This document shows positions 26,892 through 64,000 of a DNA stretch of 64,000 nt, in pieces (the first letter of the stretch is position 1; each line of letters opens with the position of its first letter). The notes beneath the pieces were generated by a model. It was given only the letters and a program-made list of their open reading frames with translations, was not told where the DNA came from and did not search any database. Position numbers and translations under genes: made by a program. This DNA comes from Arenicola marina (taxonomy: Eukaryota > Annelida > Polychaeta > Arenicolidae), in the NCBI GenBank assembly GCA_964019135.1, contig OZ025263.1:34698133-34762132 (forward strand). Direction: 5' to 3'.

Positions 26892-26893
26892 TA

Positions 26894-26914
26894 ATGGTGG
26901 AAGAGCAAGGATGA
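26894..26914 (+). CDS. Possible 6-codon upstream ORF overlapping the SLC34 start
   Basis: ATG at 26894 opens MVEEQG and its TGA at 26912-26914 overlaps the main ATG at 26911 as ATGA. With the predicted cap site at 26888 the uORF start is only about 6 bases from the cap, so leaky scanning may bypass it. If transcription starts further upstream it could tune translation of the transporter. Confidence 0.35.
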   Translation: MVEEQG

Positions 26915-42200: not shown

Positions 42201-43502
42201 GAGAACCCAAGTGTGACTGCTGTGTCATCCGTTTCCTTCACCAAATGGCAGTGCATACATTGGGGCAATGGGGGGATGTATGTGATGCAACATTGTAAGG
42301 ACAAATGCTGCATGGCTCATAACAGGGTGTATGCCCACATTGACCACTGCCCACTTTGACCCCTGATCAAGGGGTGGTGGTGGAGAGGACTTTTCCACAG
42401 CTGCTCAACCACCCAGTGCCCCCCACTCCCGTTGCCAGCACCAGCTGCTATGTCGTGTGTATATATGTGTAAATAGAATAACAGATGAATTTGTATCTTA
42501 AACTGGTATCTGCGATGATATTTAAACTGATTTATGAATGATAAACAGTCATGTCAATCCCATGTCACCTGGGCATCCCTCTATCCCCTCAAACATTGAC
42601 CTTAGGTCAGATTGCTGGTATTGATAATTGAGTCCCACAAGCCAATTAACAGTTTATATCACCCACAAGACCATAGCTGCTTTTTATCCTTACTTTTGGG
42701 TTTAAATATCTCATTTCTGCCCCCCCCTCCAACCCCCTGTTCCAAGCCTTGCTGAGACAAATCTGATAAAGATTGATACTGAAGGATTTTCCGATTTACC
42801 TGATACAAAGGAAAATGAAACCATTTTTGAAACCACTTTCAATGGTATACCTACCTAAAGGATGAACATATAAGTCTAGTTCCATTTGTTTACACATTCG
42901 TCATTTATATTGGCAATGGCTATGCGCTTATAAAATGATGCCAGTATAAACATGCTGTCTATTTCAATTTCTACCCGCTATTGGACTATTCATCAATAAA
43001 TTAGTATCTCGATTTTGGTTTTATGTAAATGGAACATACCCAAACTGGGCACATTTCTTTAGTAGATTGGTACATCCCTGCCGAATACGCGTCCATTTGG
43101 TATGCTGCTGTGCCCCATTCAAAACAGTGTGTATGAAAACAAAACAGAATGGTGTGTGCATTTCATTGGAATAGGCATATCCCTATCGGCACACCCCTTC
43201 CCCCCAGAAGGTCTCTGTCACGGGTTGCGGGTCCCGGGCGGGATACCGAACCTGGCCCACTGACAGCCAGCAATCAGCATGGCAAGGGATTTTCATTTTG
43301 GATGACATTGACAGTTGACGGGCAACATTGACTGGAAATCAAGTAGATTGCTGTTATTTATCATTGAGTACCATGAGCTAATTTACAGCTTGCGTCACCC
43401 ACAAGACCTTATGGCTGCTTTTATGCTTACTTTTGGGTTTAAATGTCTTATTTCTTCACTTAACCTTCGAAAAAGTTGTAAGTTGCTTGTTTTCGTCGCC
43501 AT
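39284..43502 (-). CDS. FMC1: FMC1 homologue, mitochondrial ATP synthase assembly factor
   Basis: A small matrix protein needed for assembly or stability of the F1 part of ATP synthase. Three exons on the minus strand: 43502-43431 (24 codons), 40859-40707 (51 codons), 39379-39284 (31 codons plus stop), giving 106 aa against about 113 in human. All introns are GT-AG, phase 0. Family landmarks: an N-terminal helix with LFRRL at 10-14 (LYR-like position), HQVTSRKVCRSEQEM and ETYLCYLKSSRKY in exon 2, and a GSGEK...EASANLVGLTMPKLP tail in exon 3, matching the human GKGER...EESAGLVGLKLP end. The start context AAACATGG is good. Both introns are filled with repeats (SINEs, MITE, two minisatellites). 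IGBP1 diverges from it with 1.4 kb between starts, so a shared promoter region is possible. Confidence 0.9.
39791..40477 (-). mobile_element. tRNA-derived SINE (family C) with 13-bp target duplication
   Basis: The minus-strand head (near 40445-40477) has GGTAGCTCAGTGGGTTAGAG, and the tail on the minus strand ends in (AACC)n. Target duplications GTTACAGGC(C/A)CGT lie at 39778-39790 and 40478-40490, with one mismatch. The element sits in FMC1 intron 2 and is itself interrupted by a 420-bp MITE. Confidence 0.85.
39990..40409. mobile_element. Harbinger-like MITE, 420 bp, inside the SINE
   Basis: Perfect 29-bp terminal inverted repeats beginning AGCCCGGTTCCCACGATGAA lie at 39990-40018 and 40381-40409. 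They are flanked by TTA target duplications (39987-39989, 40410-40412). The other SINE copy at 38.5 kb carries the empty site CCGTTAGGCTC, confirming insertion and duplication. No coding content. Confidence 0.9.
41000..41160 (-). mobile_element. tRNA-derived SINE (family A), head expanded into an array
   Basis: The minus strand reads CTGGTGTAGTGGTTAGCAC and then the family tail (GGGGAGGTTCCTTGGCCCCC, then TGTGTGTGCAAAAGG). It is related to the copies at 49884 and 50929. The head runs directly into the 54-bp tandem array. It lies in FMC1 intron 1. Confidence 0.75.
41140..41610 (-). repeat. 54-bp minisatellite derived from a SINE tRNA-like head, about 8-9 units
   Basis: On the minus strand every unit contains CCTGGTGTAGTGGTTAGCGC, the A-box segment of the family A SINE, followed by an AGACCGCAGATCAATAGATC-like segment also present in the dispersed copy at 50929. 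The array therefore amplifies about 54 bp of SINE head next to the parent SINE. Open frames on both strands follow from 54 being a multiple of three. Confidence 0.9.
41627..42110. repeat. 78-bp minisatellite, about 6 units
   Basis: Units carry CAGCATCC...AAGGCTGGATAGTTCAGT and CATTCC...AACATCCTTCCATATC segments. It abuts the SINE-derived array in FMC1 intron 1. Divergence between units is moderate. Confidence 0.9.
42604..42725 (-). repeat. Diverged duplicate of the FMC1 exon 1 end and splice donor
   Basis: 42604-42725 aligns with 43340-43455. On the minus strand it keeps a readable AEMRYLNPK next to a GTAAGG donor, against EEIRHLNPK next to GTAAGC in the real exon 1. Similarity continues about 100 bases into the intron but stops upstream of this exon end, so no start codon came with it. 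It is a pseudo-exon or a possible alternative exon in FMC1 intron 1. Confidence 0.7.
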
Positions 43503-43664
43503 GTTTGATATTTCGGTATTTCATAGTGTCCCGGGTCAGGACGAATACATTGAAGTAACCGACAAGTTTTGCGTCCCTCAAATCGTCGCTCTCTCAACTC
43601 TTCATTTATTATGGTCACGATGGGCTGCGGGGATATCGGAGGAAAAACAGGCCGTCTCTATAGG

Positions 43665-43990
43665 GAACGGCCTGAGAGACGCCGGCGTCGTGGGGGACGG
43701 CGGCAGCGTGGGTGACGGCTTGGGGGATGGCGGCGGCCTGGGGGACGGCGGCGTCATGGGAGATGGGGTGTAAGAAGGGGTGTAAAAAATGATATAAAGG
43801 ATGAATGAAATGGATAATTAAATAATTCAAGAATTAAATTGCTAATTACATAATTCAAGAATGAAATTGATAATTAAATATAGAATTAAATTGATAATTA
43901 AATAAAGAATTAAATTGATGATCAAATAAAAAATTAAATTGATAATTAAATAAAGAATGAAATAAAGCATTAAATCGTGAATTAAATTAA
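43665..43990. repeat. GC-rich then AT-rich simple repeats upstream of FMC1
   Basis: 43665-43775 holds degenerate GGGGGACGGCGGC-like units of about 15 bp. 43820-43985 holds ATAATTAAATAAAGAATTAA-type units. Both lie in the 1.4-kb region between the divergent FMC1 and IGBP1 starts. Confidence 0.75.
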
Positions 43991-44346
43991 TCCGATTGGC
44001 ATAAATATGTATTTCAGTATATATGCGTTTGGCCGGGCCGATAAATATCGAACATGTGATCATGTTGACTGTCAAATAATTAAGATCACTGATGTTAGTT
44101 AGAATTTTCTATTCTGGTAACACATTCCTGGAAGCAACGTCGATGAGTGACAGCGGACTCTCAGTCGCTTCGGATATATGAAAGTAACGTATTCGCCTTC
44201 CAACTTATCGGTTACTTTAATTCGGTCGGAGAACGTCGAGCGACAGATATCAAAGCTAGCTCGCAATTTCAGCCCGTAAATTCAAGGCCGATTTGTCATT
44301 TTGGTCATACCTCATAGTTTGTTGTGCATATTTGAAGGCTTGTAGT

Positions 44347-44507
44347 CGGGAAACACAGGCACAGTAAATCGACTGACACAGTGGGAGGGTCCTCACCGCC
44401 TACTAATAAACTTGTTTATTAGAACTTGTTTATTGGTAGACGGTGCGGACCCCCTCCCCCCCCTCTCTGTGTCAGTCGATTTACTGTGCCTGTGTCGGGA
44501 AGCGTGA
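44347..44507. mobile_element. hAT-like foldback MITE, about 150 bp
   Basis: A nearly complete palindrome: CACAGGCACAGTAAATCGAC on the left (from 44353) is matched in reverse at 44473-44492, and the arms continue inward to a TTGTTTATTAGAACTT loop. A 7-8 bp direct repeat (G)TCGGGAA flanks both ends, fitting hAT target duplications. It lies between FMC1 and IGBP1. Confidence 0.75.
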
Positions 44508-44896
44508 ATTAAGCGTCTGAGAAGGGTTGCTACTGGGGCTCTAATCAAATTCCCCAAAGTGTAAGCAAATATAATCAAGACAAGCGAACCAGAAAAACCC
44601 AGAAGGAATGCCGGATGAGATTAGATAGGCCGGATAAGATAAGATTTATAAAGTTTTATTTGGCCGGCTTCCGTATATAAAATCAACACAACACATTTGC
44701 ACAAGCCGCGAGTATATATATCTCACTGGATCCGCGCCTCGAGCGCACACTTGCCAGGTTTGGTGGTAATCGACGCTAAATTTGTTGATTAAAGAGCATC
44801 GTTTTTTTAGGTATGTCCAAAATAAAAATACGGCCGACCTTGAATTTGCGGGCCGAAAGTGCGGGATCAATTTACGGGCTAGTTTGATTGTAAACA

Positions 44897-47800
44897 ATGG
44901 CGGCCAGCGAGGACGTAAAGTTGCCAGAACTATTTGACAAGATATGGAAATCTTACCAATATTTGGACAAAACTGATGAACCAACCATTGCGGACAACGT
45001 TCAGGTGATTGCCCGATCTGCTGAGGGCTTGTACTTGAACGGCTCGTTAGCGATATCTACATCTTGACTTTACAGAACTGTCACTTCGTCTTCCATGTGA
45101 CCTGCTAGGGGGGGTGGGGGGCAGGGTGACCTGTCTTCGGTCTTCGCGATGTTATCATATCTGCATTTCCATGGCATGGGGGGCATTTCCGCATGGGATT
45201 TCGGCAGCACTGCCCCCCCCCCAGACCACCCTGTTTATGTCGTCCAGACTTGTCTGCCAGCTAAGACCTTAGGAGGCAGTTGCCACATTAACAGCCATGA
45301 ACAGGGCTGACCCCCCCTATACCACCACCTAGCAGCCAGGCTGGTACGATTACTGGTTTATCAGTGGCAGTTGCCAATAAGGGGACTAACCAATAGGGGC
45401 CTACATGCGATAGAGTTAGGCACACATGACTATGATATAAAACAAGCAGTGCAAGGTTATACCAGCAAGAACATATAAGTAATTTGGCGCAATTACCCCC
45501 AGGCAAGTCCGCTTTCTAGGGGCACAACAGTGTCTATGCAAAGTTTTTAGATGCCAGTCGGGAATCGACTGTAGCTTTTATTATAATATATGTGCATACA
45601 ATTATAGTGCTTTACATATTTTATACATCTTGATCTATCTTCTGACATCAAAAAAGTATTCAACACTAGGTTGTTTCAGTTCTATTTTGAAGAAATGTTG
45701 GAGCACTTGACTTTTCCTGACTAAGCATCTGCCATATTTGTTTTTGGCGAATGCCGGTACCTGTGAATGCAACTTGATTTCCCGCTCTGTTAGCATTAGA
45801 TTCTCCACTAGAGGGCATTGTCAGTTGCTCACTTTGAACTTAAGGACAACAGCAATACCCTCTGTCACAGGTAATTCATGGTTACAAAGTTTGAGACCCA
45901 GGCTACAAATGGTTCAAATGATGGCAGGCGCTCGTGCTGCTTTTGCATGGTGGATGGTTGGGAAAAGACTGCTCCAACATTTCTTTGTGAAAATATAACC
46001 AATACTACCTAGTTTTGATACACTTTCTTGATGTCAGAAGATAGAACAAGGTATATAGAATACGTAAACACTATAATTGTACGCGTACACATTATGATAC
46101 AAGATACAGTCAATTCCCAACTGGCATCTAGAGAACTTTGCATGGACACTGTTGTGCTCCTAGAAAGCAGGCTTGCCTGGGGTCACTTGTGCCAAATATG
46201 TACTGTGCAAAGTGTTCTGAACTGTTATGGTGGACAGATATTTCTGGGATGAATTTTTGAAGATAAATATGAATTCTTGGCATAAACAAAATGAATCATG
46301 ATACCTTGCATATCATTAACAAGGGTGAATTAGATGTTCTTGCCGGTTTAGTACTGGATTGATTGGTACGCAGCATAATTAATACTGAGGATGCTTGCAG
46401 GATTACCACTTACGTAGTTGGAATGGGTTGATATATATAACAAAGTACCCATACCATGGTGTGGATAGGATTGACACATAACCTGGGTATCTATGGAGAG
46501 GGGAGGGTGTATGTTCAGTAAGCTACTCCTTAGAGTAAGCCACCATTTATCTTTTGAGTCTGAGAGATTAGATCATCAATATGCTGCATATAGCTCAATA
46601 TCAGAGTGGACAGTGACTCCACTATACAGTATCAGAAGTATCCCAGGTAGGTTCACTCTTGTCTTCCCAGCAGGAAGGTGTCTTAATATATGAGAGATAA
46701 CTACACTTTGTGATTATACATTTAGTGATCAATTCTCTTTCTAAATCAGATTTAATCGCTTTCTTTGTAGCCTTGAACCAACACAGCAGTTCTCCCTATC
46801 ATATAGAGATGAATATCTTTACCTTCACAAAAACAAACAAATTTTGCCAATGGAATAAAGGCTTTACTAGCTACTATGATAGATAGATTAATAAAGTTAG
46901 TCAAATGAAAGCAAATATACATAGGTATACCTGTATCACCTTTTTTTTTACAGGGACATGTTAAAGAAGCTACAAATGACGCTGAAAGAGCTATCTTTAT
47001 GATCAACAAGCTGAGGCTATTCAGCACCAATGAAGAGATTGATGAAGTTGCAACAAATGAAATCAAGTATGTTTTGTCATTTACTGCTACTTGCAGGTAT
47101 CATATTTTGTATATTCCGATACAATTTACATTATTTATTAGTCAACATATTTAAGTACTTATAAGCTGTGATTGAATGGATTTAAGTTCTGTAACATGAA
47201 GACTTCATTCAGATCGCTGTATCATTATGTCATTGAACCTTTATTATAATCTAAATATGTATGGACATTATCATTGCAGGTACATGCTGCTTTCTGCCCT
47301 GATGGGGTATTTACTCCTGAAGGATGTGAAACCAGAAAGAATTAAAGTCGTCCAACAAGCTCAGGTTTTATGTCAAACTGTTCAGATCCTTTCAAACTCA
47401 ATGCAGAAAACTCACATTGTTTTTGCACTAGGGTTCTTGTTTATTGTGAAGCATTAGTTCATGCAAATGAACAGTATTTGAGTCTGGTCGAATGTGCTAT
47501 ATATTATAATGTTATGCAAATTTATATGCTATAGTGATTTGAACAGAGGTATAATTGATAGGTGTGTTATATATGCATTAGAAGATAATATACACAATAT
47601 ATATCTGATACTGAATATTTGTCATTCAGGTAACAGTAATTTGTCAACCTTTAATGATTGACATATCCTGCCGAAAAATTACTGCCCGTACTTGTCAATA
47701 CCATTATTATCATCTTTTTTTACAGGTACATTTTGTTGACTTTCTGAGACTTTGCAAAGATTATGGTCTTACTCATATCGACCTTGCCTCGTACACTGCA

Positions 47801-50800
47801 ACAGAGGACAGCACTGACGCATGTGACAGTGGAACAAACCCAGGAACACCTCAAATCTCCAGGTAATTATGTTTTGGTCTTAATTGGAGCGAAAATAATG
47901 CTGTAATCTTTGTACCGGTACATATAAGACTATTGGGGCATGAATCAACCGTATCAGCTCGGTGATGATTTATCAACAATTTACATATTTGTCAGATGAT
48001 TCCTGCAGTGACCAATAACAGTTGTGACACCTAAATTTTTAAATTCCAGCTTTTATCCTTTATTAATTTTATTAGATTAATTTTACCCAGAGGCTAAACA
48101 TCAAACTTGCTTTACTAATAGCTGTATGGGTGTTGAAGTGGCTCTCAGGAGGGGGTGATGGCGCTGGCGAAGCGACGGCAGCACAAGATACAACGCTTCA
48201 GACAACAGAAGGAAGTCGAGGCAAAGTTGGCTGAGTTATATCCGCTCGTGGAGAGGGAGCATGTCGACGACGAATTGAAGGTGAGTCACAGGCTGATAGC
48301 ATGGAAGTAAAGGTGATTCACAGGCTGACAACATGGAAGTAAAGGTGAGTCACAGGCTGACAGCATGGAAGTAACGGTGAGTCACAGGCTGACAGCATGG
48401 AAGTAACGGTGAGTCACAGGCTGACAGCATGGAAGTAAAGGTGAGTCACAGGCTGACAGCATGGAAGTAAAGGTGATTCACAGGCTGACAGCATGGAAGT
48501 AAAGGTGAGTCACAGGCTGACAGCATGGAAGTAACGGTGAGTCACAGGCTGACAGCATGGAAGTAACGGTGAGTCACAGGCTGACAGCATGGAAGTAAAG
48601 GTGAGTTACAGGCTGACAGCATGGAAGTAAAGGTGATTCACAGGCTGACAGCATGGAAGTAACGGTGAGTCACAGGCTGACAGCATGGAAGTAAAGGTGA
48701 GTCACAGGCTGACAGCATGGAAGTAAAGGTGATTCACAGGCTGACAGCATGGAAGTAAAGGTGAGTCACAGGCTGACAGCATGGAAGTAACGGTGAGTCA
48801 CAGGCTGACAGCATGGAATTAACGGTGAGTCACAGGCTGACAGCATGGAAGTAAAGGTGAGTCACAGGCTGACAGCATGGAAGTAACGGTGAGTCATAGG
48901 CTGACAGCATGGAAGTAAAGGTGAGTCACAGGCTGACAGCATGGAAGTAACGGTGAGTCACAGGCTGACAGCATGGAAGTAAAGGTGATTCACAGGCTGA
49001 CAGCATGGAAGTAAAGGTGAGTCACAGGCTGACAGCATGGAAGTAACGGTGAGTCACAGGCTGACAGCATGGAAGTAACGGTGAGTCACAGGCTGACAGC
49101 ATGGAAGTAAAGGTGAGTCACAGGCTGACAGCATGGAAGTAACGGTGAGTCACAGGCTGACAGCATGGAAGTAACGGTGAGTCACAGGCTGACAGCATGG
49201 AAGTAACGGTGGATCACAGGCTGACAGCATGGAAATAAAGGTGAGTCACAGGCTGACAGCATGGAAGTAACGGTGAGTCACAGGCTGACAGCATGGAAGT
49301 AACGGTGAGTCACAGGCTGACAGCATGGAAGTAAAGGTGAGTCACAGGCTGACAGCATGGAAGTAAAGGTGAGTCACAGGCTGACAGCATAGAAGTAACG
49401 GTGAGTCACAGGCTGACAACATTAAAGTACAGGTGAGTCACAGGCTGACACCATTGAAGTGAAGAAAGTGACAGGCTGACACCATTGAAGTGAAGAAAGT
49501 GACAGGTTGACAAAATTTTAAGTAAAGGAGAGTCACAGATATTGCAATATGAGAGCAGGTTGTGGAAAGACTTTAAAAAAAATCCTATTGAACGTTATGT
49601 TTGAACATACTGATTCAATGTGCATACAGATAACAAAAAGGTGTGAAGGGAGTTACACCAACAGTTTTCTGACTTGAGTTGACTTGTGCCTGTCATGATA
49701 ACCACGTGTGCTCTGCTTACAGCGGGAGTATTACTTCACGCTGCTCAAGCGGTGGATTAACATGTCGGTCGAAGAGCTGGACGCCATACGAGGTACGCTG
49801 ACGTCACGCTGACGTCACACTGACGTCAGGCGCAACAACGAGGCTCGTAGCCCTACAGAACAGACACAACTGTTGTCCTTGGGGGAGGCCCCCTGGTGTA
49901 GTGGTTAGCGCACTAAACCGCAGAGCAATAACTCATGGGTTCGATTCCGGGGCCGGGCACCTAATCTTCGACATGTTTCATTCTCTCATTCGAAAGATAA
50001 AACTTTGCAATGTATTAACTGCATTAGATGTATTATATAATCTGCTGTGATCTTACATGCTTCCAATCGCTACTTCAGATGAAATTCCGCTCCTCGAACA
50101 AATGGCAAGAATGAGAGCTTCTGGGAAGGGTGACGTCACGAGTTCGAAGCCGCCAGCCCGGAGTGCGCAATCTTCACAAGTGAGTCCCTGTCACGTGCCA
50201 CGTGTCGCGCTCTGATTGGCTCAGCCAGAGAGCCGCGTTGGCTGTGATGAGTGAGTGTAGTAGGGCGCGTTGGGTCGCGAGGTTTGTCCTCTAGATTGTA
50301 CCACGAACATCCTATAGCGCCAAGAGACACAGTTCCATCCCATGCCGAGTAGTCATTGCGAGAGAGAAGCCTCCGTGGCCGAGTGGAAGAACGCTCGCCT
50401 GCAGGTCCCTGGTTCGAAACCCGGTGTGGGCGAGGTAATCCAGGGCATATTGCCACTGAACCATTCATTGTCCCCCGAGGTTTCTTGGCCTAAGTCAGCC
50501 CTCGTGTGCACAAGACAAGCCGAAAACAACGATCGCTTCATTGCCGTACTGCGAGGGGCTTGAGTGGTGGGCAAGCGGCACTGTTTGTAACTGTCATGCC
50601 AGTCATATGTACGTTAATTACAGTAAAGAGGTTCTTAAAACCCACCAATCGGGATCGATGTAACATTCGAGTATTCCACTGTGCGGCGCCACTGCATGTG
50701 CAATGCATTCTGACTAATGTTTGGTCTTTATGCAATGTCTTGGAATGAAGACATATTCTGTAGACAGTAGAATAAGATATATTGTCTGTAAAGGAAAATA

Positions 50801-53594
50801 TATATCTTGTGGATATACCCGTAACATAGACGTAGTAAGGGCGGCCCATTAACCAAACTGACACGTGTCCTGCTTGCAATGTAATATCTGACGTCTGGGC
50901 TTTACTAATTGAGCTTTATTCCACGCCCGGGGGCCTCCCTGGTGTAGTGGTTAGCGTACCAGACGGCAGATCAATAGGTCCTGGGTTCGAATCCGGGCCC
51001 GGGTACCTAATATGGGGCATGTTTCATCCTCTCTTCCTTCATTGTCCTGGGAGGTTCCTTGACCCCGTTGTGTGCACAAAAGCGGCCTAAAATACCAAAT
51101 AATTTCATGTCGTTACCCCCCCCCCCCCTCTCAGCTGCGGCCGTTTATCATCACGAAGAATGACCTGCAGAAGAAGGTGCTAGGGCTGGGCTACCCCAGC
51201 ATGCCCACCTACACCGTGGAGGAGTTCTTCGACCAGCAGCTGCAGCAAGGCCGACTGCCGGACCAGGGGTGAGTGACGTCACAGAGAGGTCACGCTCAGC
51301 ATGCTCAGCCAGCAGCCCCCCGGCCTGTATGGGGGACCACAGTGGTTATCTCTACTTACATACCCTGTGCGGGGTATACACGTACAGCTGACCTTGTTAA
51401 TCTGACCTCCGATAATCGCCACGGCTTTGCTGCAACGAAGCTACCCATCTCTCTCATTATTCAGACCAGTTAACCGTGAATCCACGCCGTGGCAACTGCT
51501 TAACTTGTCGGATTAAGGAGGTCTAACTTGATGTTGTTGTACCTTGTAAATTGTGTTGTTATTGTAAATAAGTATTGTGTGACTAATCTTATATAACTTC
51601 TCGTTTTAAGAGTTGTGTAACAACTCTAGTGACTGGTTCCTTGACCGCCTGGTAGACGGTAGTAGAATCATTTATAATTTGAACTTCCGCAGATAATTTG
51701 CATAACATAGTTAATGAGCTCCCATGTTGTTGGGCTGATGGGAGGACGATTAACGCTGTACACTTGTCGGGTACGGGTACGTACTGACGTAATGACGGGT
51801 AGCGCAGTTTGTTCCTGCTATTGACGGCCTTCACCTTGCCCCCATCAGCCCCTCCAGACTGCAGGGCTCGGGGGGTCCGGACGCCGAGGCGGCGGCTCAG
51901 GAGCAGCGTGCGGTGGAGGCCGAGGACCAGGTGGACCGGGATGACCCCGAGGCGCTCCAGAAGGCCAGGGACTGGGACGACTGGAAGGATGGTAGGCTGC
52001 GACCGGAGCGGATTGCGACCGGAGCGGGTAGCTGGTGGCTTGGCTCCAGGCAGGCTCCAGGGAGGCTCCAGGGAGGGTCCATAGAGACTTCAGGGAGGCT
52101 CCAGGGAGACTCCAGGGAGGCTCCAGAGAGACTCCAGGGAGGCTCCAGAGAGACTCCAGGGAGGCTCCAGAGAGACTCCAGGGAGGCTCCAGAGAGACTC
52201 CATGAAGGCTCCAGGGAGGTTTCAGAGAGGCTCCAGGGAGGCTCCATAGACTCCAGAGAGGCTCTATAGAGACTCCATGAAGGCTCCATAGAGACTCCAG
52301 GAAGGCTCGAGAGTCTCCAGGGAGACTCCAGAGACTCCAGAGAGGTTTGGTGCAGGATGTCCTCTCAGTGTCCCAGGGGTTCCGGGGTCTGGTTTAGCCA
52401 ATGTGTGCACGAAGATGGCATAAAACACCGATGTTTGGGTTTGCGAAACTTGATTTTGCGTCTTGTGGTTTTATAATTATGGTCTCTGAAGGAAGGTGAA
52501 TGTTTTTGATTAAATTTGGTTAAATATGTGACACCAAAATGAGTGTGAAAGCTTTCGAAAATTCAAAGTTAGCCCACACTTCGGGGCCCAGTAGTAGCGA
52601 GTTCGGCTGTTGTCGAGTGTGCTCTGCTGGGTAACTCAAGCGGTGGGTGTGTGGTTCGAACCCCCAGAGTAGGGGATTACTTACTCCAGGAGACATGGTT
52701 GCTCATTATCATGTTCGCGATATGATCTTTTGTGGTTGAAGCGTTCAAATCAACTTTCAACATACGTTAACAGACGAAAGGCGTTATTTACGGCCTTTTA
52801 TAGCGTTACGTATCTACAACCGTTCCAAAAGGGTCCCCTTCGCAGTCCTCTGTGAGGGTGAGGTAAATCGCGTATTAAAGTCCTCGGTGAGTGTGTGTGT
52901 GTTTGGGGGGTGGGGGGGGGGGGCTAAAGTTTTTTCCCCGATTGCCACCAGACATGCCTCAGATTGCACCTCCTGGCCCTTAACTTCTTAACTGTTCTTG
53001 TCGTTGACCCCCCCCCCCCCCACCTAACCTAAAGCCTAGCTCACACTGGGCTGGTGTTGGCTACGGTTTACCCCGGTCCTTCCCGGTCTATATGCCGGGA
53101 CGAACCGGAGCCATCTCGCATGTTGGCGCGAAAACAGTAGGCCACGATGTTACTACGGTGCTACGGTGCACCCCCGGTCATTTTGAACAGTTCAAAACCA
53201 CCGGAGCGACCTACGGTTTACCGCTGTACGCCCTGGATCACCCCGGATTGAATACGGACTACGATTGCCCAGGGTTATCCAAGGTTGTCCCTGGTTTTAA
53301 GGACCGGGGTAAACCGAGCCAATAAACACACAGTGTGAGCTAGCCTTTAACCCCGATCCAAACCGGTTGCTCATTAGTGCCTTCCGCACTTCAAACAAAC
53401 TATTTTCGGGTTTCTTCTCTGATAACACTTTACTTTTTATCCTTTCTATTCCCCAAATCACATACTATTATGATGTCAGTCGCAGATAACATTCATTTTT
53501 ATTTTATCCTGCTTACAAACGTTATATTTAGGACGACTTTGTGTTATTTGCAGACCATCGTCGCGGCTGGGGCAACACACAGAACAAAGGATGA
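44897..53594 (+). CDS. IGBP1: IGBP1 / TAP42 (alpha4) PP2A regulatory protein
   Basis: Binds and stabilises catalytic subunits of PP2A-type phosphatases in the cytosol. Exons: 44897-45004, 46954-47066, 47280-47364, 47726-47862, 48139-48280, 49723-49792, 50079-50179, 51135-51268, 51849-51991, 53554-53594; 966 nt, 321 aa (human about 339). Landmarks: MAASEDVKLPELFD start; LRLFSTNEEIDEVAT; RRQHKIQRFRQQKE at about 124-137, where R125 and K128 align with the mammalian alpha4 pair reported to contact PP2A; PFIITKNDLQKKVLG and GYPSMPTYTVEEF near 218-246; DWDDWKD and HRRGWGNTQNKG at the end, typical of TAP42 C-termini. The exon 5 acceptor is the uncertain one: 48138 keeps the frame, whereas the better pyrimidine-context AG at about 48148 does not. 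Intron 3 has a weak donor (GTTTTA). Introns carry a foldback element, a 32-bp array and several SINEs. Confidence 0.93.
45482..46197. mobile_element. Foldback element with about 236-bp inverted arms
   Basis: 45482-45717 and 45961-46197 are inverted copies at roughly 80% identity by eye, with a spacer of about 243 bp. Matching blocks include CAGGCAAG, GCACAACAGTGTC, ATGCAAAGTT, TCTTCTGACATCAA and GAAATGTTGGAGCA. It lies in IGBP1 intron 1, has no coding capacity, and the superfamily is undetermined. In pre-mRNA it would form a long hairpin. Confidence 0.85.
48281..49515 (+). repeat. 32-bp minisatellite starting at the IGBP1 exon 5 splice donor, about 36 units
   Basis: The first unit begins exactly at the exon 5 donor, and each following unit repeats AAGTAAAGGTGAGTCACAGG or a close variant. 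The array therefore multiplies an AAG/GTGAGT donor match. GTGAGTCA also contains a perfect AP-1 site (TGAGTCA). Variants are GTGATTCA, GTGAGTTA and AACGGTGAGT. The last units, from about 49415, decay. It fills most of intron 5. Confidence 0.96.
49884..49992 (+). mobile_element. tRNA-derived SINE (family A), 3' truncated
   Basis: CCTGGTGTAGTGGTTAGCGC forms the A-box segment and GGTTCGATTCC the B-box. A family body follows up to CATGTTTCATTCTCTC, after which the copy breaks off. It lies in IGBP1 intron 6. Confidence 0.85.
50368..50550 (+). mobile_element. tRNA-derived SINE (family B)
   Basis: The head reads TCCGTGGCCGAGTGGAAGAA, resembling class II tRNA (Ser/Leu), with B-box GGTTCGAAACC. The tail TTCATTGTCCCCCGAGGTTT then TTGGCC and GTGTGCACAAG is shared with family A. 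It lies in IGBP1 intron 7. Confidence 0.8.
50929..51105 (+). mobile_element. tRNA-derived SINE (family A), longest copy
   Basis: The head carries CCTGGTGTAGTGGTTAGCGT and B-box GGTTCGAATCC. The body contains GGGGCATGTTTCATCCTCTC and a tail with TTCATTGTCCTGGGAGGTTC and GTGTGCACAAAAG. It ends about 30 bases before the IGBP1 exon 8 acceptor. Confidence 0.85.
52040..52345 (+). repeat. Short tandem repeat near the IGBP1 exon 9 donor
   Basis: Degenerate 20-bp-class units of GACTCCAGGGAGGCTCCAGA begin about 50 bases after the exon 9 donor (51991). A shorter duplicated segment, GCGACCGGAGCGG, lies right behind the donor. The array is in intron 9. Confidence 0.85.
52600..52675 (+). repeat. Possible tRNA-like fragment
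   Basis: GGTTCGAACCC at 52653-52663 is a perfect B-box, with a GGTAACTCAAGCGGT stretch upstream that only loosely fits an A-box. It lies in IGBP1 intron 9 and could be a third SINE type or chance. Confidence 0.3.
53030..53350. mobile_element. Harbinger-like MITE, about 320 bp
   Basis: TAAAGCCTAGCTCACACTG at 53030-53048 is matched in reverse by CAGTGTGAGCTAGCCTTTA at 53331-53349. The arms extend inward (GGTTTACCCCGGTCCTT on both sides). A TAA/TWA target duplication is plausible but not clean. It lies in IGBP1 intron 9. Confidence 0.8.
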
Positions 53595-54270
53595 CGTCAG
53601 ACATCACGTGATCAACCCGTTAATGATTGTTATGACACGTTATCATGGTGTGCTGAGCATGGACGTCGCGTGACGTCAGTCGGAGTCAGACTGAAACGAC
53701 AGAAGCGATTTCCTGACACGGACACTGTCGACGGCTGGCACGTCAGATGGCGTCTGTGACCTTGCCTGACCTCTGACGTTAACCTGCTGCCAATCAGAAG
53801 TAAGGGAACGCTGACCTCGGTTGAATCGTCCTACACTGCATTCCGGCTGAACTCACGGCGACAGACTTGTGGTCTAACTGACCTTGGCGCTGTGACCTTG
53901 ACGCCGCAAACCAAAGAACCCGGTTTATCCAGTCTGACAGTTTACCCTCATGAAAACATCCGTTCCCCACTGTCCACCTTGCACCGAGGAACCATTGTTT
54001 CAGTATTGTTCACGTAGTACTCACGCCGCGCATGCACGAGAAGGCGTCTGTCCCATGGCGCGTGTCATGGCTGTGTGGGACGCGGTCTGGTCAGGACAAA
54101 GACAAGGTCGTGTCGAAGGGGAATACTCTGCGATCTATTCTCTTGCCACAATATGTGATGAGCTCTATTCTATTTCTGGTGTCGCGTACACTGTGTGGTG
54201 ACGTCTATGCTAGTTGTGATGTCATCTTCACCATCACGTAGCGCCAATAAATTAAAGAAGAGGACGAAAG
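53595..54270 (+). other. IGBP1 3' untranslated region
   Basis: Sequence from the stop to AATAAA at 54246-54251, followed by a GTTGTTATTCC stretch, predicts a 3' UTR of about 670 nt. Confidence 0.55.
54246..54251 (+). terminator. Candidate IGBP1 poly(A) signal
   Basis: AATAAA followed by a U/GU-rich segment. It is the first good hexamer after the stop. Confidence 0.5.
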
Positions 54271-57200
54271 CGGTAATATTGTTGTTATTCCAGACTGCTT
54301 CTCTCTTGGATACGGTTCGACTCTTTTAACTTTCTCCTATTAAAGATTTACTGGCGCTGTTAAGGTGGATAAGGATATGGCATTGGTTCGCGTGAGAGTT
54401 GAATTCTTTCACCACAAGTGTCCTACAGAAGAGCAAAGAAAATTGGTACGCAGAAACCCATCTTACACGAGAAGCAATGCCCTTTCCATATTCTGGCACA
54501 AACATTTGTCGATTTCACTCGATGACAGGCGCAAAAAGACATCCAGCCACCCGTCACAATATGCGGGATGGGTGACGTGTGCAGACGTGTCGTCACAAAT
54601 GACGACAAACACACGAGCACGCGACGACAAGAAGTCCCAGAGTACCCCCCCCCCCCTCATTTATGAACAACTAACAATCACCGGGGTGTCAATGTATTGT
54701 GATTTATTAGCTAGCAGGCTGTTAATAAGCACTTCAACATCCATGACCAACAAAAAAATGCATGCATACACATATATAGTACATGCGTACACCTAATATA
54801 TTCCAAGTGTTATATCTTGGCGTAATATCATGAATGGCTCAAGCCCAGTCCTTGTGAGTGAGGGTGTTTACACTGGGCACCGCACGGCCAGGAACACCGG
54901 ACCTTATATAGTATAGAAGTATATTCACACACGCACAAAGACAGGCATACAGACACGGAAAGCTAAGCCTAGGACGAACACATCGGGAGCTTGGAGCTCT
55001 AAACAATGATCATTTAATCACATAAGCAGCTGAAGCCTGCTAGCCACAGAGCACTGAAGCACACTTCGAGTCAACAACTGAACAAAGAGCAGCTTAAAAG
55101 CCATATATAAAATCGAGAAAAAAGCTCGATATTTCTCAGACAAAAAAGTCATCATATAGTTTGTTTGTTTATGTGTATGTATATTTACACGCGCATGTCC
55201 ACGAAGCAGTTAGACTGTCGGTTTGCACATTGTCATATCGTTATTCTACATACAATAGCACTCCTCCCAGGATTACATCCAAGGGTGCGACTCTCTAATC
55301 CACGTTTCCCTCGCTCCACATCTCAGACACACAGCTCCTATATACAATCACGGCGTCACCAAAGCTTCGTGGAAACGACACCAGAGGCGCTAACGGCTCA
55401 AAGGGCAACTCGGAGAAACAGTGACGTCACAGCGGAACAATGACGTCACAGAGGACAATGAACATTGCAGTGTAGCGACTGTCACGAGGCCTGACTGGGG
55501 AGGGAGGGAGGGTGACGGTGGGGGTAGAGGGCTACAGCGTCACTGAAGATAATCACCATGGGAACCGTATCCAGGCTGAATACGATCGGCAAGCAACATT
55601 TTCATTCCTTAAGCTACCGTTCAGCTAACAAAGCCAGCATTTCGCACGTAAGCCGATGAATAATTAAGCTTCAGCAAATAAAGGAATCTTTTGTTCTCAC
55701 GGCTTCACTGCGACTCAGTTCTAACACAAGAAGCAGGGCGTCCAACAGACAACCGTAAGTAACCAGCAATTCACATTGTGACCAGCAATCTATAAGTTAT
55801 GAGGTAAACATAAACCCAGAGTTGAATGCGTCACGGGCTGGAGTGGAGGCTGGCGGGTTGAGGGAGGGGGGAGGGGGGGGGTCTTGAACAGGGACACACG
55901 GGGGGGGGGGGGTCTTTAACAGGGACACACGGGGGGGTGGGGGTCTTTAACAGGGACACACGGGGCCCGAGCACTTTATCGACGCTGTACGTCACTCCTC
56001 TTAATACTATACTGTATACTATACTGCTGCTGGGAACAGAGACCCGACCCGGCCGTCCATGTTTCCGGTACGCTCGCGTTTTAATCGCTCCAAACATTCC
56101 CTAATGTTGATTACCGTGAGGAGAATGTTAAGCCGTTCGCTATGGACCAGTGGGTCAAGGCGTGGGTCATCACGGGGCACGGGGATACCGCACATGGTAG
56201 GGCTCTGTGAGGCCAGGGGGTGGGGGGATGGTTCTATGCGAGGAGCCTTGAAACCCCCCCCTCCCATCCCATAATTATAGCGGTGTCTGTAATGCCACTG
56301 ATTAAAGTTACTATTTCAACAAATTTTGCGGCGGGGGTGTTCCGTCAGATCACGTGAGGCGCCGCGGCTGTTGGAACAGCTGTAAACACTGTGTAACACT
56401 CTGCCTCAAGAAGGCGCTGCCAGTCGCGAATCCTGGCCAATAACGTCTAGTTTATATATGGTTGGTACCAGTGACTTCCGGAAAGTTAGTCGTTGGCGCT
56501 CGCCCTGGCGGAGATTACTTCATGCGTGTTACGTCACCAGCACATCAACGTCACTGTACACACGTTTTTTCTCCGCCAGATTTGGATCACAATGAATGTT
56601 TACTTTTTGTTGTAATAGTAACTTTAACATATATCACATAATGGAATATCTATAGCAAATGACTTCACGTCCTGCAGTGAGCCAGACCTCCATCGCCCCC
56701 TCTCCCCTCCGGTCGTTGATTCGGCAAAACATAAACTCAGTAAACACAATGAACTAATGCCCCTTTAAACAGACCAAGACGTAGGGCCGTCTCAACCCGA
56801 CCGTTCTCTCTGACAACACAGATACACTCACCCCTATCGCCCAGGCAGTCAGCCGTCACCCCCGGGCTCACACCCCAGGGCTCACAGCCCCGGGGGGCCA
56901 CACCCCCGGGCCCACACCCTCGGGCCTACACCCCCGGACAAAAAACACTTAGCGATGACCAAGTCAAATACATGTAGCAGACGTGGGGTTAAAATTAAAC
57001 CCATCAAAATCCAGGGATTGCGTTTATCCGGCGACAATGAGCAAATGAGAAATAGGTTCAAAGGTGCCACGTGTAGACACTATGCTACAGGTACATGATA
57101 CATTGCGCCACCTTAAGACCAGCCACAGACCCCAGGAAAGTAGTCAGCCCTCCTCACGCCAAGCTATGTGGCTTTGGTGGCGACAGGAAGGATTACTAAT

Positions 57201-57663
57201 CTCAACACACACGTTCAGGTTACTGATTCACCTACAAAATCGGACAAATTAAATCTCAAGATTATCAAGTCAACTAAGAAAGACGAATCACACATCGACA
57301 TCACAACACACTTCAGCAATAGACGCGGAATGGTGTTTGTCGGGGGGGTGGGGGGTAAGGCAAGTACATTAACTGGGGGTCTGATGGGGAGGTGACGGAG
57401 CGGGGGGGAGGGCGGACTGTACGTCACCCGAGGGGGCGGGGTGAGGAGAGGGGGACTGGCACCGCGCGAAGGGTCAGGTCTGGGGGGACTAAGTTCCAGG
57501 GGTCAGAGGGAACTGTAAATGAATGAGCAATACGTATTTGACGCGGATAGGTCAGCGAGGGTTACGGGGGGCACTTCAGAGCTGGGCAAACACAGGTAAT
57601 CTGGGTTTTCCATATTGAGGGGGCTGGGGCGGGCGGGCTGGGGGGGGGGGGGGGGTAAACAGA
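54271..57663. other. Intergenic, short GC-rich repeats, no gene recognised
   Basis: About 55875-55965 has three units of GGGTCTTTAACAGGGACACA plus G runs. About 56850-56935 has CACACCCCCGGGC-like units. G16 lies at 57640-57655, just past the stop of the minus-strand gene. The 3' UTR of that gene should lie here, but I see no canonical minus-strand AATAAA. Confidence 0.45.
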
Positions 57664-59954
57664 TTAGCACCTACAATCACTTGCGCGCAGAGACTCAAGT
57701 TTGTCGGCCGTGGACTGGGAGCTAGCGAACTGCTGGAGCGAGATGCTGGACTGGGCCTTGGCGGCGGGCTTCAGACTGCCCGCCCCCGCCCCCGACCCCG
57801 CCTCCCGGGGCCCCACGCTCTCGCGGTTGTCGCCGCACCACGAGTAGCGGTCGTGGGGACTAGCGCCCTCTGGCGAGGAGCAGGGCTGGCTGTCGCCGGC
57901 CGGTTTGTTGTAGGCCGTGGCGGCCCCTTTCGTCCCATCCTGGCGGGGTCTGGCCGCCTCACGTCCCCCCTTGGCACCGCTGGCGGCAGGGGCGGGGCCG
58001 GGGCCGGGCCCGGGGCCGGGGGCACCGCTGGGGGCGCAGCCAGCGGGCGTCCTGGGGCGCGAGTCCGCCGCGCCCAGCCCGCCCGCGTCGTCCGATCCGT
58101 GAAGCGACGCCTCCAGAGAGCTCTCCGCAGAGTCGCTGCCGCTGGATCCGGAGAGTCCCGCTCCGGGGCCGGCGCGTCCGGCGGCGGCGGCTGAGGCGGA
58201 GGCGGAGGCGCCCAGGAACAGGTCTGCCTGGCGCGAGTAGAAGTGTCCGTGTCCGGTGGGGCGGGGGGCGGTGCCGTTGGGGACCCGGCTGACGGCCGTG
58301 TCCGTGGCCATGTTATCGCCGTACCGGGCCAGCAGAGCAGGGTCCACGGCCCCCGGCCGGCCCTCCTCCGACCCCCGGCTGCTCCCGTCCGAGGGCCACC
58401 CGTCCCCGCCTGCTATGTGCCAGTTGGGGCCCTGAGGCCGGGTCGCTCCCCCGGTCTCCACTCCCGCCCCCGCCCCCGCCGCGCTGGGGCCCCGGGCGGC
58501 CAGGGGCAGCGAGGTGGGTCGTACCACGGGAGAGCCGTTGAGAAGCAAGACTTCGGTCTCCATGACTGGACTGCCTCCTCCCCCTCCCACGTTGGCGGCC
58601 AGGCTTAGCCGTGCCGCCGCCATCTGACTATTGTCCATTCTGTCCCCCTCCCCGGGGTAAGGGCCGTCCCCGGGGGGAGGGCCCGGGGGTCCGCCGACCA
58701 GCGTCGGAATGGGCGGCCGGTGCGGCGCCAACAGGTACTGTGTCTCCCCGGGCAACCGGCCGATGACGTCATGCTCGGCCCGGCGGTCGCCGCCTTTCCG
58801 CTTCCCAAAGAACGGCAGTCCACGCTTGGCGCCCGCGGTGCCGACGTTTACGTTCTTGTCGCCCCAGCCGCGCGCCTTCTTGAATTTGCCGAACCAGTTT
58901 TTCGGTTTCACGTCACCGCCGCCAGAGTTGATGTCAATGTGCGCATGCGCGCTGCCGTTGCCGGGAACGTTGGGCTGCTTCGGGCGGACAATCATTGGCT
59001 GGTGGTGGGGGTGACCGCCCACGTGGTTCTGGTGGAAGCCAATGGGCGCCTGGGTCAGTGATGACGTCATGGGAGGCTGGTGCCGCTGCTGCTGCTGCTG
59101 CTGGGGCTGGGGCTGGTGCTGGGGCTGGTGCTGGGGCTGACGAGGCTGGTGCCGCTGCTGACCCAACATGTCGTTGTCCACTAGCGAGCTCTCCAGGTTA
59201 TCGGCGATGGCGTCCAGCATCTCGTCCGTGAGCGCCGTGTCTGTGGACCCCGTAGGGGCGGGGGCCGCGCCGCCGGACCGGGGCGTCCACACAGCCGACC
59301 CGGCCCCGGGGTGAGCGCCACCCCCGACTCGCACCCCGACACCGTGCGCCTGCTGCGGGCGCCCGCCCCCGCGCCCGCCCCCGCGCCCCTCCTCCGCCGC
59401 GCGGCTGGTCCCAGCGCGGCCCGACGGTCCCGCCGCCGCAGCAGCAGCAGCAGCAGCAGCCGCCGCCGCCGCAGCCTCCGACTTGCTGACGAGTGTGTTG
59501 CCCAGGATGGCCAGCTCCTCGTCGCTGTGTTTGTGGGTGTTGCGCTCCACCGTGGGGTTCTGGCCCTGGTGGGGCTGCAGGGGCCGCCCGGCTCGCGCCG
59601 CCAGCAGGTTGCAGTTGGCCTTGGTGGGCTGCTGCGGGGGTTGCGGGGGCTGCGGGGGCGGGTCGAGGTCGAGGGGGTCCCCGGGGTCCGTGGGGGACAG
59701 CGTCGTCTCGACGGTGGAGGCGGCCGACACGCTGGCGTCCGTGTAGGACTGCCGCTGGCTGCGCCGCGCCGCCATGCCGCCCGCCGCGTCCATGGCGTCA
59801 TCGCTCATGTACCCCGGCTTTCCGTGCACGGCGACGGTCACGTGGTCCGCGCGGGGGCCCTCGGCCGGCGGTTGACTAGAAGTGACGTTGCGTTGAATGT
59901 TGGCTTTATCCTCCAAGTCGATCAGACCGGAACTCAACACGGTCGGGGTCACAC
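57664..59954 (-). CDS. Terminal exon of an unrecognised large protein
   Basis: I do not recognise the family. The minus-strand acceptor TTCTGTCCGCCAG ends at 59955, and the exon starts in a phase needing one base from upstream. Predicted sequence begins (G)VTPTVLSSGLIDLEDKAN and ends LRASDCRC-stop. It is about 763 residues, largely disordered, with very GC-rich codons. It contains poly-Ala, poly-Gln/His-Gln-Pro and Pro/Gly tracts. More structured-looking islands are GYMSDDAMDAA, DEMLDAIADNLESSLVDNDML, a basic KNWFGKFKKARGWGDK / FFGKRKGGDRR patch, and SSISLQQFASSQSTADKLES at the C-terminus. The preceding exon, judged by its tandem copies at 61.5-64 kb, ends ERVLDMVSVWDNRYK and supplies the missing G. 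That could be the end of a coiled-coil or helical region. The gene continues beyond the window. Confidence 0.7.
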
Positions 59955-59979
59955 CTGGCGGACAGAAGCAGAACCAAGC

Positions 59980-61211
59980 ATCAAGGTCGATACACCTGGC
60001 CACCTCACTGTCACTGACCTACTCTATAACATACATCACATCGCCACAGTGTCAAGGTCAAGGTCGATACACCTGGCCACCTCACTGTCACTGACCTACT
60101 CTATCACATACATCACATCGCCACAGTTTCAAGGTCAAGGTCGATACACCTGGCCACCTCAGTCACTGACCTACTCTATAACATACATCACATCGCCACA
60201 GTGTCAAGGTCAAGGTCGATACACCGGGCCACCTCACTGTCACTGACCTACTCTATCACATACATCACATCGCCACAGTGTCAAGGTCAAGGTCGATACA
60301 CCTGGCCACCTCACTGTCACTGACCTACTCTATAACATACATCACATCGCCACAGTGTCAAGGTCAAGGTCGATACACCGGGCCACCTCACTGTCACTGA
60401 CCTACTCTATCACATACATCACATCGCCACAGTGTCAAGGTCAAGGTCGATACACCTGGCCACCTCACTGTCACTGACCTACTCTATAACATACATCACA
60501 TCGCCACAGTGTCAAGGTCAAGGTCGATACACCTGGCCACCTCACTGTCACAGACCTACTCTATCACATACATCACATCGCCACAGTGTCAAGGTCAAGG
60601 TCGATACACCTGGCCACCTCACTGTCACTGACCTACTCTATAACATACATCACATCGCCACAGTGTCAAGGTCAAGGTCGATACACCGGGCCACCTCACT
60701 GTCACTGACCTACTCTATCACATACATCACATCGCCACAGTGTCAAGGTCAAGGTCGATACACCTGGCCACCTCACTGTCACTGACGTACTCTATAACAT
60801 ACATCATATCGCCACAGTGCCAAGGTCAAGGTCGATACACCTGGCCCCCTCACTGTCACTGACCTACTCTATAACATACATCACATCGCCACAGTGTCAA
60901 GGTCAAGGTCGATACACCTGGCCACCTCACTGTCACTGACCTACTCTATAACATACATCACATCGCCACAGTGTCAAGGTCAATACACCTGGCCACCTCA
61001 CTGTCACTGACCTACTCTATCACATACATCACATCGCCACAGTGTCAAGGTCAAGGTCGATACACCTGGCCACCTCACTGTCACTGACCTACTCTATAAT
61101 ATACATCACATCGCCACAATGTCAAGGTCAAGGTCGATACACCTGGCCACCTCACTCTCACTGACCTACTCTATAATATACATCACATCGCCACAATGTC
61201 AAGGTCAAGGT
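59980..61211. repeat. 77-bp minisatellite next to the terminal-exon acceptor, about 16 units
   Basis: Units carry GTCAAGGTCAAGGTCGATAC, then CACCTGGCCACCTCACTGTC, then a GACCTACTCTATAACATACA-like part. The GTCGA landmarks at 59986, 60063 and 60140 give the 77-bp period. Each full unit has TCAAGGTCA, a perfect ERR/SF-1-type half-site extension. The array starts about 25 bases upstream (in the gene's sense) of the terminal exon's acceptor. Confidence 0.95.
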
Positions 61212-61494
61212 GAAAAGGACAGGAATGGAAGATCCACTGAGCGATAAAAGTTGTTTCTACATATAGATAAATTATATATACTGCTTAATAACAGTGAATT
61301 TGTAAACGAAAAACAGGCATGGCATCCAGTGTTCATAGCTTGAATTGAATAACACAAGAATTGAACACGTATATAAACATACAAGGCTTAATCACGCATG
61401 AAAATTGTAACGCATATTATATCTCTTATGTTAGATACAATGAGGAAAAACATGGGACGTGGCAAGCTGAAATGAGAACTGAACCCAAATACTG
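61212..61494. other. Unique intron sequence between two arrays
   Basis: AT-rich single-copy intron sequence of the minus-strand gene. Nothing else is seen. Confidence 0.5.
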
Positions 61495-64000
61495 GCCGCT
61501 GGCCTCACCTTTGTACCGGTTGTCCCACACAGACACCATGTCTAGGACACGCTCCTCCACACACAGTGACGTCAGTCTGGCCTCACCTTTGTATCGGTTG
61601 TCCCACAGAGACACCATGTCTAGGACACGCTCCTCCACACACAGTGACGTCAGTCTGGCCTCACCTTTGTACCAGTTGTCCCACAGAGACACCATCTCTA
61701 GAACACGCCCCTCCACACACAGTGACGTCAGTCTGGCCTCACCTTTGTACCGGTTGTCCCACAGACACCATGTCTAGGACACGCTCCTCCACACACAGTG
61801 ACGTCAGTCTGGCCTCACCTTTGTACCGGTTGTCCCACACAGACACCATGTCTAGGACACGCCCCTCCACACACAGTGACGTCAGTCTGGCCTCACCTTT
61901 GTACCGGTTGTCCCACAGACACCATGTCTAGGACACGCTCCTCCACACACAGTGACGTCAGTCTGGCCTCACCTTTGTACCAGTTGTCCCACACAGACAC
62001 CATGTCTAGGACACGCCCCTCCACGCACAGTGACGTCAGTCTGGCCTCACCTTTGTATCGGTTGTCCCACAGAGACACCATGTCTAGGACACGCCCCTCC
62101 ACACACAGTGACGTCAGTCTGGCCTCACCTTTGTACCAGTTGTCCCACAGAGACACCATGTCTAGGACACGCCCCTCCACACACAGTGACGTCAGTCTGG
62201 CCTCACCTTTGTACCGGTTGTCCCACAGAGACACCATGTCTAGAACACGCCCCTCCACACACAGTGACGTCAGTCTGGCCTCACCTTTTGTACCGGTTGT
62301 CCCACAGACACCATGCCTAGGACACGCTCCTCCACGCAGTGACGTCAGTCTGGCCTCACCTTTGTATCGGTTGTCCCACACAGACACCATGTCTAGGACA
62401 CGCTCCTCCACGCAGTGACGTCAGTCTGGCCTCACCTTTGTACCGGTTGTCCCACACAGACACCATGTCTAGGACACGCTCCTCCACGCAGTGACGTCAG
62501 TCTGGCCTCACCTTTGTATCGGTTGTCCCACACAGACACCATGTCTAGGACACGCTCCTTCACGCACAGTGACGTCAGTCTGGCCTCACCTTTTGTACCA
62601 GTTGTCCCACAGAGACACCATGTCTAGGACACGCTCCTCCACGCAGTGACGTCAGTCTGGCCTCACCGTTGTATCGGTTGTCCCACACAGACACCATGTC
62701 TAGGACACGCTCCTCCACACACAGTGACGTCAGTCTGGCCTCACTTTTGTACCGGTTGTCCCACACAGACACCATGTCTAGGACACGCCCCTCCACGCAC
62801 AGTGACGTCAGTCTGGCCTCACCGTTGTATCGGTTGTCCCACAGAGACACCATGTCTAGGACACGCCCCTCCACACACAGTGACGTCAGTCTGGCCTCAC
62901 CTTTGTACCAGTTGTCCCACAGAGACACCATGTCTAGGACACGCCCCTCCACACACAGTGACGTCAGTCTGGCCTCACCTTTGTACCGGTTGTCCCACAC
63001 AGACACCATGTCTAGGACACGCTCCTTCACGCACAGTGACGTCAGTCTGGCCTCACCTTTGTACCGGTTGTCCCACACAGACACCATGTCTAGGACACGC
63101 CCCTCCACACACAGTGACGTCAGTCTGGCCTCACCTTTGTACCGGTTGTCCCACAGACACCATGTCTAGGACACGCTCCTCCACACACAGTGACGTCAGT
63201 CTGGCCTCACCTTTGTACCAGTTGTCCCACACAGACACCATGTCTAGGACACGCCCCTCCACACACAGTGACGTCAGTCTGGCCTCACCTTTGTACCAGT
63301 TGTCCAGAAGAGACACCATGTCTAGGACACGCCCCTCCACACACAGTGACGTCAGTCTGGCCTCACCTTTGTACCGGTTGTCCCACAGACACCATGTCTA
63401 GGACACGCTCCTCCACGCACAGTGACGTCAGTCTGGCCTCACCTTTGTATCGGTTGTCCCACAGAGACACCATGTCTAGGACACGCCCCTCCACACACAG
63501 TGACGTCAGTCTGGCCTCACCTTTGTACCAGTTGTCCAGAAGAGACACCATGTCTAGGACACGCCCCTCCACACACAGTGACGTCAGTCTGGCCTCACCT
63601 TTGTACCGGTTGTCCCACAGAGACACCATGTCTAGAACACGCTCCTCCACACACAGTGACGTCAGTCTGGCCTCACCTTTGTACCAGTTGTCCCACAGAG
63701 ACACCATGTCTAGGACACGCCCCTCCACACACAGTGACGTCAGTCTGGCCTCACCTTTTGTACCGGTTGTCCCACAGACACCATGCCTAGGACACGCTCC
63801 TCCACGCAGTGACGTCAGTCTGGCCTCACCTTTGTATCGGTTGTCCCACACAGACACCATGTCTAGGACACGCTCCTCCACGCAGTGACGTCAGTCTGGC
63901 CTCACCTTTGTACCGGTTGTCCCACACAGACACCATGTCTAGGACACGCTCCTCCACGCAGTGACGTCAGTCTGGCCTCACCTTTGTATCGGTTGTCCCA
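61495..64000 (-). repeat. 77-78 bp minisatellite containing an exon end and splice donor, at least 32 units
   Basis: On the minus strand each unit encodes an ERVLDMVS(V/L)WDNRYK stretch followed by a donor AAAG/GTGAGG, then an intron-like part with TGACGTCA. The full unit is 78 bp (26 codons) and stays open; shorter variants shift the frame. The donor phase fits the terminal exon at 59954. The final unit ends just after its donor near 61500. TGACGTCA is a perfect CRE palindrome present once per unit. The true exon is expected at the upstream end, beyond 64000. The array is cut by the window edge. Confidence 0.95.

Follow-up and report, generated by a model that had tools for sequence, protein, structure and literature searches.

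Minisatellites that repeat 5′ splice sites in IGBP1 and BMPR2 of the annelid Arenicola marina

Tandem repeats lying over exon–intron boundaries, termed 'mirages', are described in PMC3087553 for amphioxus Adh3, with units of 10-72 bp, and both that paper and PMC3902484 attribute them to Canestro et al. 2002. The passages on mirages in PMC3087553 add amphioxus globin genes, in which units of 150-160 bp lie at either boundary; they suggest regular splicing, report that the repeats are unstable in length and in somatic tissue, and offer a model for the gain of introns, and the reference list of the paper (69 and 70) names retinol dehydrogenase and presenilin genes. It has been suggested in print that the phenomenon is general in amphioxus. 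PMC3902484 adds lancelet PGBD5 and TnC (troponin C) to the mirage genes. Normal splicing of known mirages is reported in both sources, and the cases in their mirage passages are all cephalochordate. Here we describe 5′ splice sites (donors) repeated in tandem in two genes of the annelid Arenicola marina, IGBP1 and BMPR2, and a single duplicated donor in a third, FMC1, all within a 64,000-base stretch of contig OZ025263.1 (assembly GCA_964019135.1, positions 34,698,133 to 34,762,132; hereafter the window). The IGBP1 and BMPR2 arrays belong to the kind already described. We consider it likely that they are ordinary minisatellite expansions of the mirage kind, tolerated at donors, with each further copy falling into the intron.

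The clearer of the two arrays stands in IGBP1, which together with its repeats comprises the following features (here and below, a slash in a nucleotide motif marks the splice position).

44897-53594, plus strand: IGBP1 gene, 10 coding exons, continuous 357-residue frame with stop
44897-45004, 46954-47066, 47280-47364, 47726-47862, 48139-48280, plus strand: IGBP1 exons 1-5
49723-49792, 50079-50179, 51135-51268, 51849-51991, 53554-53594, plus strand: IGBP1 exons 6-10
48278-49538, plus strand: 32-bp minisatellite, 40 units, most with AAG/GTGAGT or a weakened form of it
49795-49828, plus strand: 11-bp mini-array of 3.1 copies, beginning at base +3 of IGBP1 intron 6 (donor GT at 49793)

A 345-residue version of the protein, without its end, matches Pfam TAP42 (PF04177) at 1.2e-82 and a solved IGBP1 chain in the Protein Data Bank (PDB) at 6e-37. 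The edge of the 32-bp array falls at the exon 5 donor, where intron 5 starts: its first unit is the authentic donor, with GT at 48281, and overlaps the exon by 3 nt according to Tandem Repeats Finder (TRF) or by 9 nt in local alignment. All 40 units are in register and units 1-37 carry GT at the donor position, as 14 AAG/GTGAGT, 16 ACG/GTGAGT, 5 AAG/GTGATT, 1 ACG/GTGGAT and 1 CAG/GTGAGT; this count, like all array copy numbers given here, comes from one sequence and depends on its assembly. An earlier note on this DNA had put donor-repeating units, about 36 of them, at the start of this intron, and it was right. GT is lost in units 38-40, so that a homogenised interior ends in a diverged edge (units 37-40), and this decay supports the view that the array is tolerated. 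Two further observations support it. The exon 5/6 junction (DDELK/REYY) is ungapped in the alignment to solved IGBP1, as the protein would read if the first donor is used, and splicing from the donors of units 2-7, the six downstream sites tested, would in each case run into a stop after residue 204. Predicted U1 pairing is weaker than at the authentic site for 22 of the 36 downstream donors (units 2-37); we make no claim that selection has weakened them, because few independent mutations have been amplified by the array.

At the start of IGBP1 intron 9 (51992-52331), a short repeat in two copies (TGCGACCGGAGCGG) can be made out by eye, and from base +51 onwards an 11-bp unit is repeated about 27 times.

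The second array lies in the terminal gene of the minus strand, BMPR2, which runs off the window.

61499-64000, minus strand: 78-bp minisatellite of apparent BMPR2 kinase-end coding sequence, AAAG/GTGAGG at unit junctions, continuing past the window end
59981-61211, minus strand: second minisatellite in the same BMPR2 intron, 77-bp unit, 16 copies
57664-59954, minus strand: last coding exon of BMPR2 that the window contains, encoding the cytoplasmic tail, open frame, acceptor CCGCCAG/GTGTG in phase 1

The last exon has no Pfam match, and a 74-residue query that joins one unit (from TSLC) to it finds BMPR2 in the PDB weakly (E 1.5). A 35-residue query that includes the five preceding repeat residues, GEARL, finds BMPR2 at E 0.001 (6unp) and 0.0025 (3g2f), with EARLTSLCVEERVLDMVSLWDNRYKGVTPTV as the aligned stretch, the next PDB matches being unrelated and starting from E 0.32; the BMPR2 match crosses the join of unit and last exon. 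Translation of the unit gives EARLTSLCVEERVLDMVSLWDNRYK, the closing part of the kinase domain. In its 26-residue frame, 25 residues align to human BMPR2 with one gap, the first residue having no partner, and EAR, encoded right after each donor, also aligns as exon. By homology, the repeated piece thus appears to be receptor kinase coding sequence, and because nearly the whole unit is exonic on this evidence, AAAG/GTGAGG would be the head-to-tail junction of units rather than an exon end followed by intron. The earlier note had seen at least 32 units with repeated donors here, which stands; the division of each unit into exon end and intron, which it had also proposed, is unlikely from the alignment.

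The window holds 32 full unit starts, 29 of them with AAG/GTGAGG, and after the last unit comes one more donor, at 61508. The unit donor and the acceptor of the last exon share the same phase. A single edge of the array falls within the window. When the array is compared with itself at shifts of 1300-1599 bp, the best match comes at 1470 bp, with 93% identity over 1032 bp; this self-match is a mark of block-wise expansion, which again supports toleration. The 77-bp minisatellite lies near the 3′ end of the intron, so that tandem repeats make up almost all of the intron as far as the window covers it. Its unit contains CCAG/GTGT, and the array leaves the true acceptor uncovered. An acceptor-side mirage was considered for this intron and rejected: 26 bp separate the 77-bp array from the acceptor, and the acceptor's spanning duplicate is not above background (score 20, control fraction 0.70).

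Alternatively, the BMPR2 array could itself be translated as a repeat region, with inner donors in use and proteins in which the kinase-end helix is present several times. None of the 21 units of 78 nt has an in-frame stop, which would allow this, and starting from one unit the frame stays open as far as six further donors at most. The remaining lengths are 76 nt (8 units), 77 nt (1) and 75 nt (2); 9 of the 32 units therefore shift the frame by their length and the two of 75 nt are internally out of frame. Moreover, the 13 distinct substitutions among the 78-nt units show no synonymous excess (4 of 13, against 28% expected), and one copy suffices for the alignment to human BMPR2. On the unit frames and the substitution pattern we set this alternative aside as very improbable. 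The units look like unconstrained copies of a coding segment, a further point in support of a tolerated array.

The repeat might instead have made the BMPR2 donor itself and so created or moved the intron, in which case we would be looking at a visible intermediate in the birth of an intron from a coding minisatellite. The 78-bp coding duplication would have joined AAAG to GTGAGGCC, giving a strong 5′ splice site that is absent in a single copy. We take the human exon 11/12 boundary to lie near residue 529, which the literature passages do not give, and the intron here to lie at the equivalent of residues 512/513, in a numbering anchored on E489 and R491. By a count of residues, the last-exon frame runs unbroken past the place of residue 529, and with the human boundary so placed the position of the intron appears to differ from the human one. 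Literature passages on human BMPR2 place E489 in exon 11 and the coding sequence of the tail in exons 12 and 13. Two features speak against such a birth: the acceptor at 59955 is not part of the repeat, lying about 1.5 kb beyond the 78-bp array, and between the last copy and the unique sequence there are 10 nt more of the unit. The same acceptor separates BMPR2 from the model in which an intron arises when an exon segment with AGGT is duplicated in tandem (Rogers 1989, Hellsten 2011), as PMC4974935 describes it together with a fission yeast case that has a 24-bp exonic AGGT repeat. BMPR2 resembles the model in having an exonic segment duplicated in tandem with AGGT at the unit junction; it departs from it in that donor and acceptor do not both come from the duplicated segment. 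We regard the origin of this intron from the repeat as unlikely.

Both arrays compare closely with the published mirages, as far as the passages in PMC3087553 and PMC3902484 describe them. Each unit contains an exon–intron boundary (in BMPR2 this is the unit junction, the authentic exon lying outside the window), most copies keep the splice signal, and a homogenised interior passes into a diverged edge, seen in IGBP1 at units 37-40 and judged for BMPR2 from the one edge in the window and the 1470-bp block repeat. Amphioxus Adh3 is alike in its tandem units that repeat the boundary and unlike in that other genes are affected here. The globin genes BflGb6 and BflGb9 likewise have a 5′ or 3′ boundary duplicated with an exonic part, and the concerted evolution of the globin mirages, in which boundary units are left out of homogenisation, has its likeness here; the scale differs, with 3 or 6 units of the globin length in BflGb6 against 40 units of 32 bp and at least 32 of 78 bp here. 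In lancelet PGBD5, repeats of 60 and 108 bp lie against or across splice sites and coding sequence, as here, in 2-7 copies; the BMPR2 unit is coding by homology and has its donor at the junction. The amphioxus comparison drawn in the earlier note is therefore right in kind, as Adh3, the globins, PGBD5 and TnC attest, whereas its generalisation to a widespread phenomenon is weak.

The third gene, FMC1, has one extra copy of a donor and its surroundings.

43431-43502, minus strand: FMC1 exon 1 (MATKTSNLQLFRRLSEEIRHLNPK), donor GTAAGC at 43430
42592-42718, minus strand: one diverged duplicate, comprising the end of FMC1 exon 1, the donor (at 42693) and some 100 nt of intron
40707-40859, minus strand: FMC1 exon 2, donor at 40706 predicted by eye

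The copy holds the last 25 nt of exon 1, lies about 735 bp from the original and is 79% identical to it over 133 bp (E 2e-26, 421 bp compared with 1,124 bp). At E 1e-4, neither the original stretch beyond the copy nor the spacer at 42730-43300 has another match in the window. The diverged copy that the earlier note had reported in FMC1 intron 1 is thus real; it makes a two-copy duplication, not an array, and stands outside the mirages. The further statement in that note, that the duplicated piece crosses the 5′ junction into the intron in all three genes, holds for IGBP1 and FMC1 but not for BMPR2. The gene name is tentative: with the two exons joined, the N-terminus gives a match to Complex1_LYR_2 that falls below the cut-off of that family (E 0.0034) and one to a PDB chain at E 0.03, and it resembles the human FMC1 sequence.

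Also in FMC1 intron 1, at 41127-41599, a 54-bp array corresponds to the head of a dispersed, tRNA-like repeat that is also present in single copies on the opposite strand, at 49880-49990 and 50929-51033. This array is apparently a minisatellite seeded by an element resembling a short interspersed nuclear element (SINE).

Tandem repeats are abundant throughout the window: with TRF (score of at least 50) they take up 19,699 of the 64,000 bases (31%), in 38 merged arrays of which 15 are at least 150 bp long. At such density a few minisatellites might meet donors by chance, with no link beyond the density itself. The donor motif AGGTRAG argues otherwise, for it occurs in only two of the 15 large arrays and in none of the other 13, and those two are the arrays at donors, each on the strand of its gene: 15 copies in IGBP1, of 25 on the plus strand of the window, and 30 in BMPR2, of 33 on the minus strand. 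The same distribution supports a tolerated array. The coincidence of the IGBP1 array edge with the exon end is also unfavourable to chance, which we hold to be improbable.

A donor-directed process would duplicate sequence preferentially at donors, for example through breaks or template switching at 5′ splice sites that are bound by U1 or prone to R-loops, and should leave array edges in excess there. We counted 16 donors (9 in IGBP1, 5 in a gene resembling SLC34, 2 in FMC1) and 16 acceptors (9, 5 and 1 in the same genes, and 1 in BMPR2); the BMPR2 donor was excluded because its junction was picked from an array. An array edge lies within 5 bp of two donors, with 0.21 expected by rotation (p ~0.02), and of no acceptor; the two remain two of 16 at 10 bp (p 0.05; acceptors 0 of 16). 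The excess has gone at 50 bp, with 3 of 16 donors (p 0.21) and 1 of 16 acceptors, and all of these figures come from a small sample and a crude rotation null. One of the two close edges is that of the 34-bp mini-array in IGBP1 intron 6. Fewer junctions than rotation predicts lie inside an array or within 5 bp of one: 2 of the 16 donors and none of the 16 acceptors, with 5.0 expected for either set, a pattern to be expected where exons keep arrays away. Duplicates that span the junction (score of at least 40) occur at 3 of 17 donors, in a set that adds BMPR2 represented by its 3′-most unit copy, and at 0 of 16 acceptors. They occur at 3% of 400 random positions of 28600-62000 outside large arrays, which would favour targeting, but at 28% of 400 when arrays are included, as often as at donors, which chance alone would also give. 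With 13 of the 15 large arrays free of AGGTRAG, and acceptor-side mirages reported as well in the passages of PMC3087553, we give a donor-directed process a low probability.

The IGBP1 and BMPR2 arrays have captured a donor-like site, yet nothing in the edge and spanning-duplicate counts demands machinery aimed at donors, and we did not adopt targeting as our explanation. The earlier note had suggested a common mechanism that expands sequence across donors; within the window this is unsupported, as most arrays lie elsewhere, the edge excess is weak and the three anatomies differ.

Under ordinary expansion, a short tandem duplication that crosses a 5′ splice site, or reaches up to it, would arise and then grow by unequal exchange or slippage. 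As long as the exon-proximal donor stays intact and in use, each further copy would be intronic, and we infer that the array is tolerated for this reason. Purifying selection on the exon would pin one edge of the array at the exon end and leave the intron side to drift. The IGBP1 unit would then be the donor with 29 nt of intron, the BMPR2 unit 78 bp of exon, in frame, with a strong donor formed where units join head to tail, and FMC1 one old duplicate. A duplication that spans the donor spares the exon and the outermost donor, and would thus offer a rare place in which a repeat containing coding sequence can grow freely. The normal splicing reported for known mirages in PMC3087553 and PMC3902484 is in line with this account.

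Several points weigh against it. The choice of donor is predicted from DNA. In predicted U1 pairing, 13 downstream IGBP1 donors equal the authentic one (-10.2 kcal/mol) and one is stronger (-11.7 kcal/mol), so if the first site is the one used, this must depend on more than donor strength, probably on exon definition and position. The start of the BMPR2 array and its authentic exon lie beyond base 64000, outside the window, and the small excess of array edges at donors would also be expected under targeting.

IGBP1 and BMPR2 extend the short list of published genes with splice-site minisatellites, and BMPR2 adds a repeated unit that homology indicates to be coding and that is in frame. They offer natural tests of how the spliceosome chooses the outermost among dozens of near-equal donors, and of whether introns can arise from coding tandem duplications. 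Duplicated donors occur in three genes within about 21 kb.

The remainder of the window was surveyed more lightly. The Pfam scan for genes was partial, covering selected stretches and frames with stops read as X. No match above the cut-off was found in the six frames of 1112-3480, 5887-10244 and 14779-19565 or in the three minus frames of 13237-14138, where GLTT and DUF832 matched below it, and two minus frames of 40501-55501 gave no match. Rfam at gathering scores and a tRNA scan returned nothing in the window, and an exact-pattern scan of viral_contigs gave 0 matches. In the three plus frames of 19881-29881 the only match, below the cut-off, was Na_Pi_cotrans. The same family identifies a gene of the SLC34 type, for a sodium-phosphate cotransporter, at 28662-32212 on the plus strand (5.2e-12); its upstream exons were not found, and no array (TRF score of at least 50) lies within 2.6 kb of any of its five donors. 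Finally, a 21-bp array at 10243-13236 leaves all three minus-strand frames open for about 1000 codons, one of them reading as a heptad-like repeat (LRTEVAA); the open frames are probably a consequence of the stop-free 21-bp unit.

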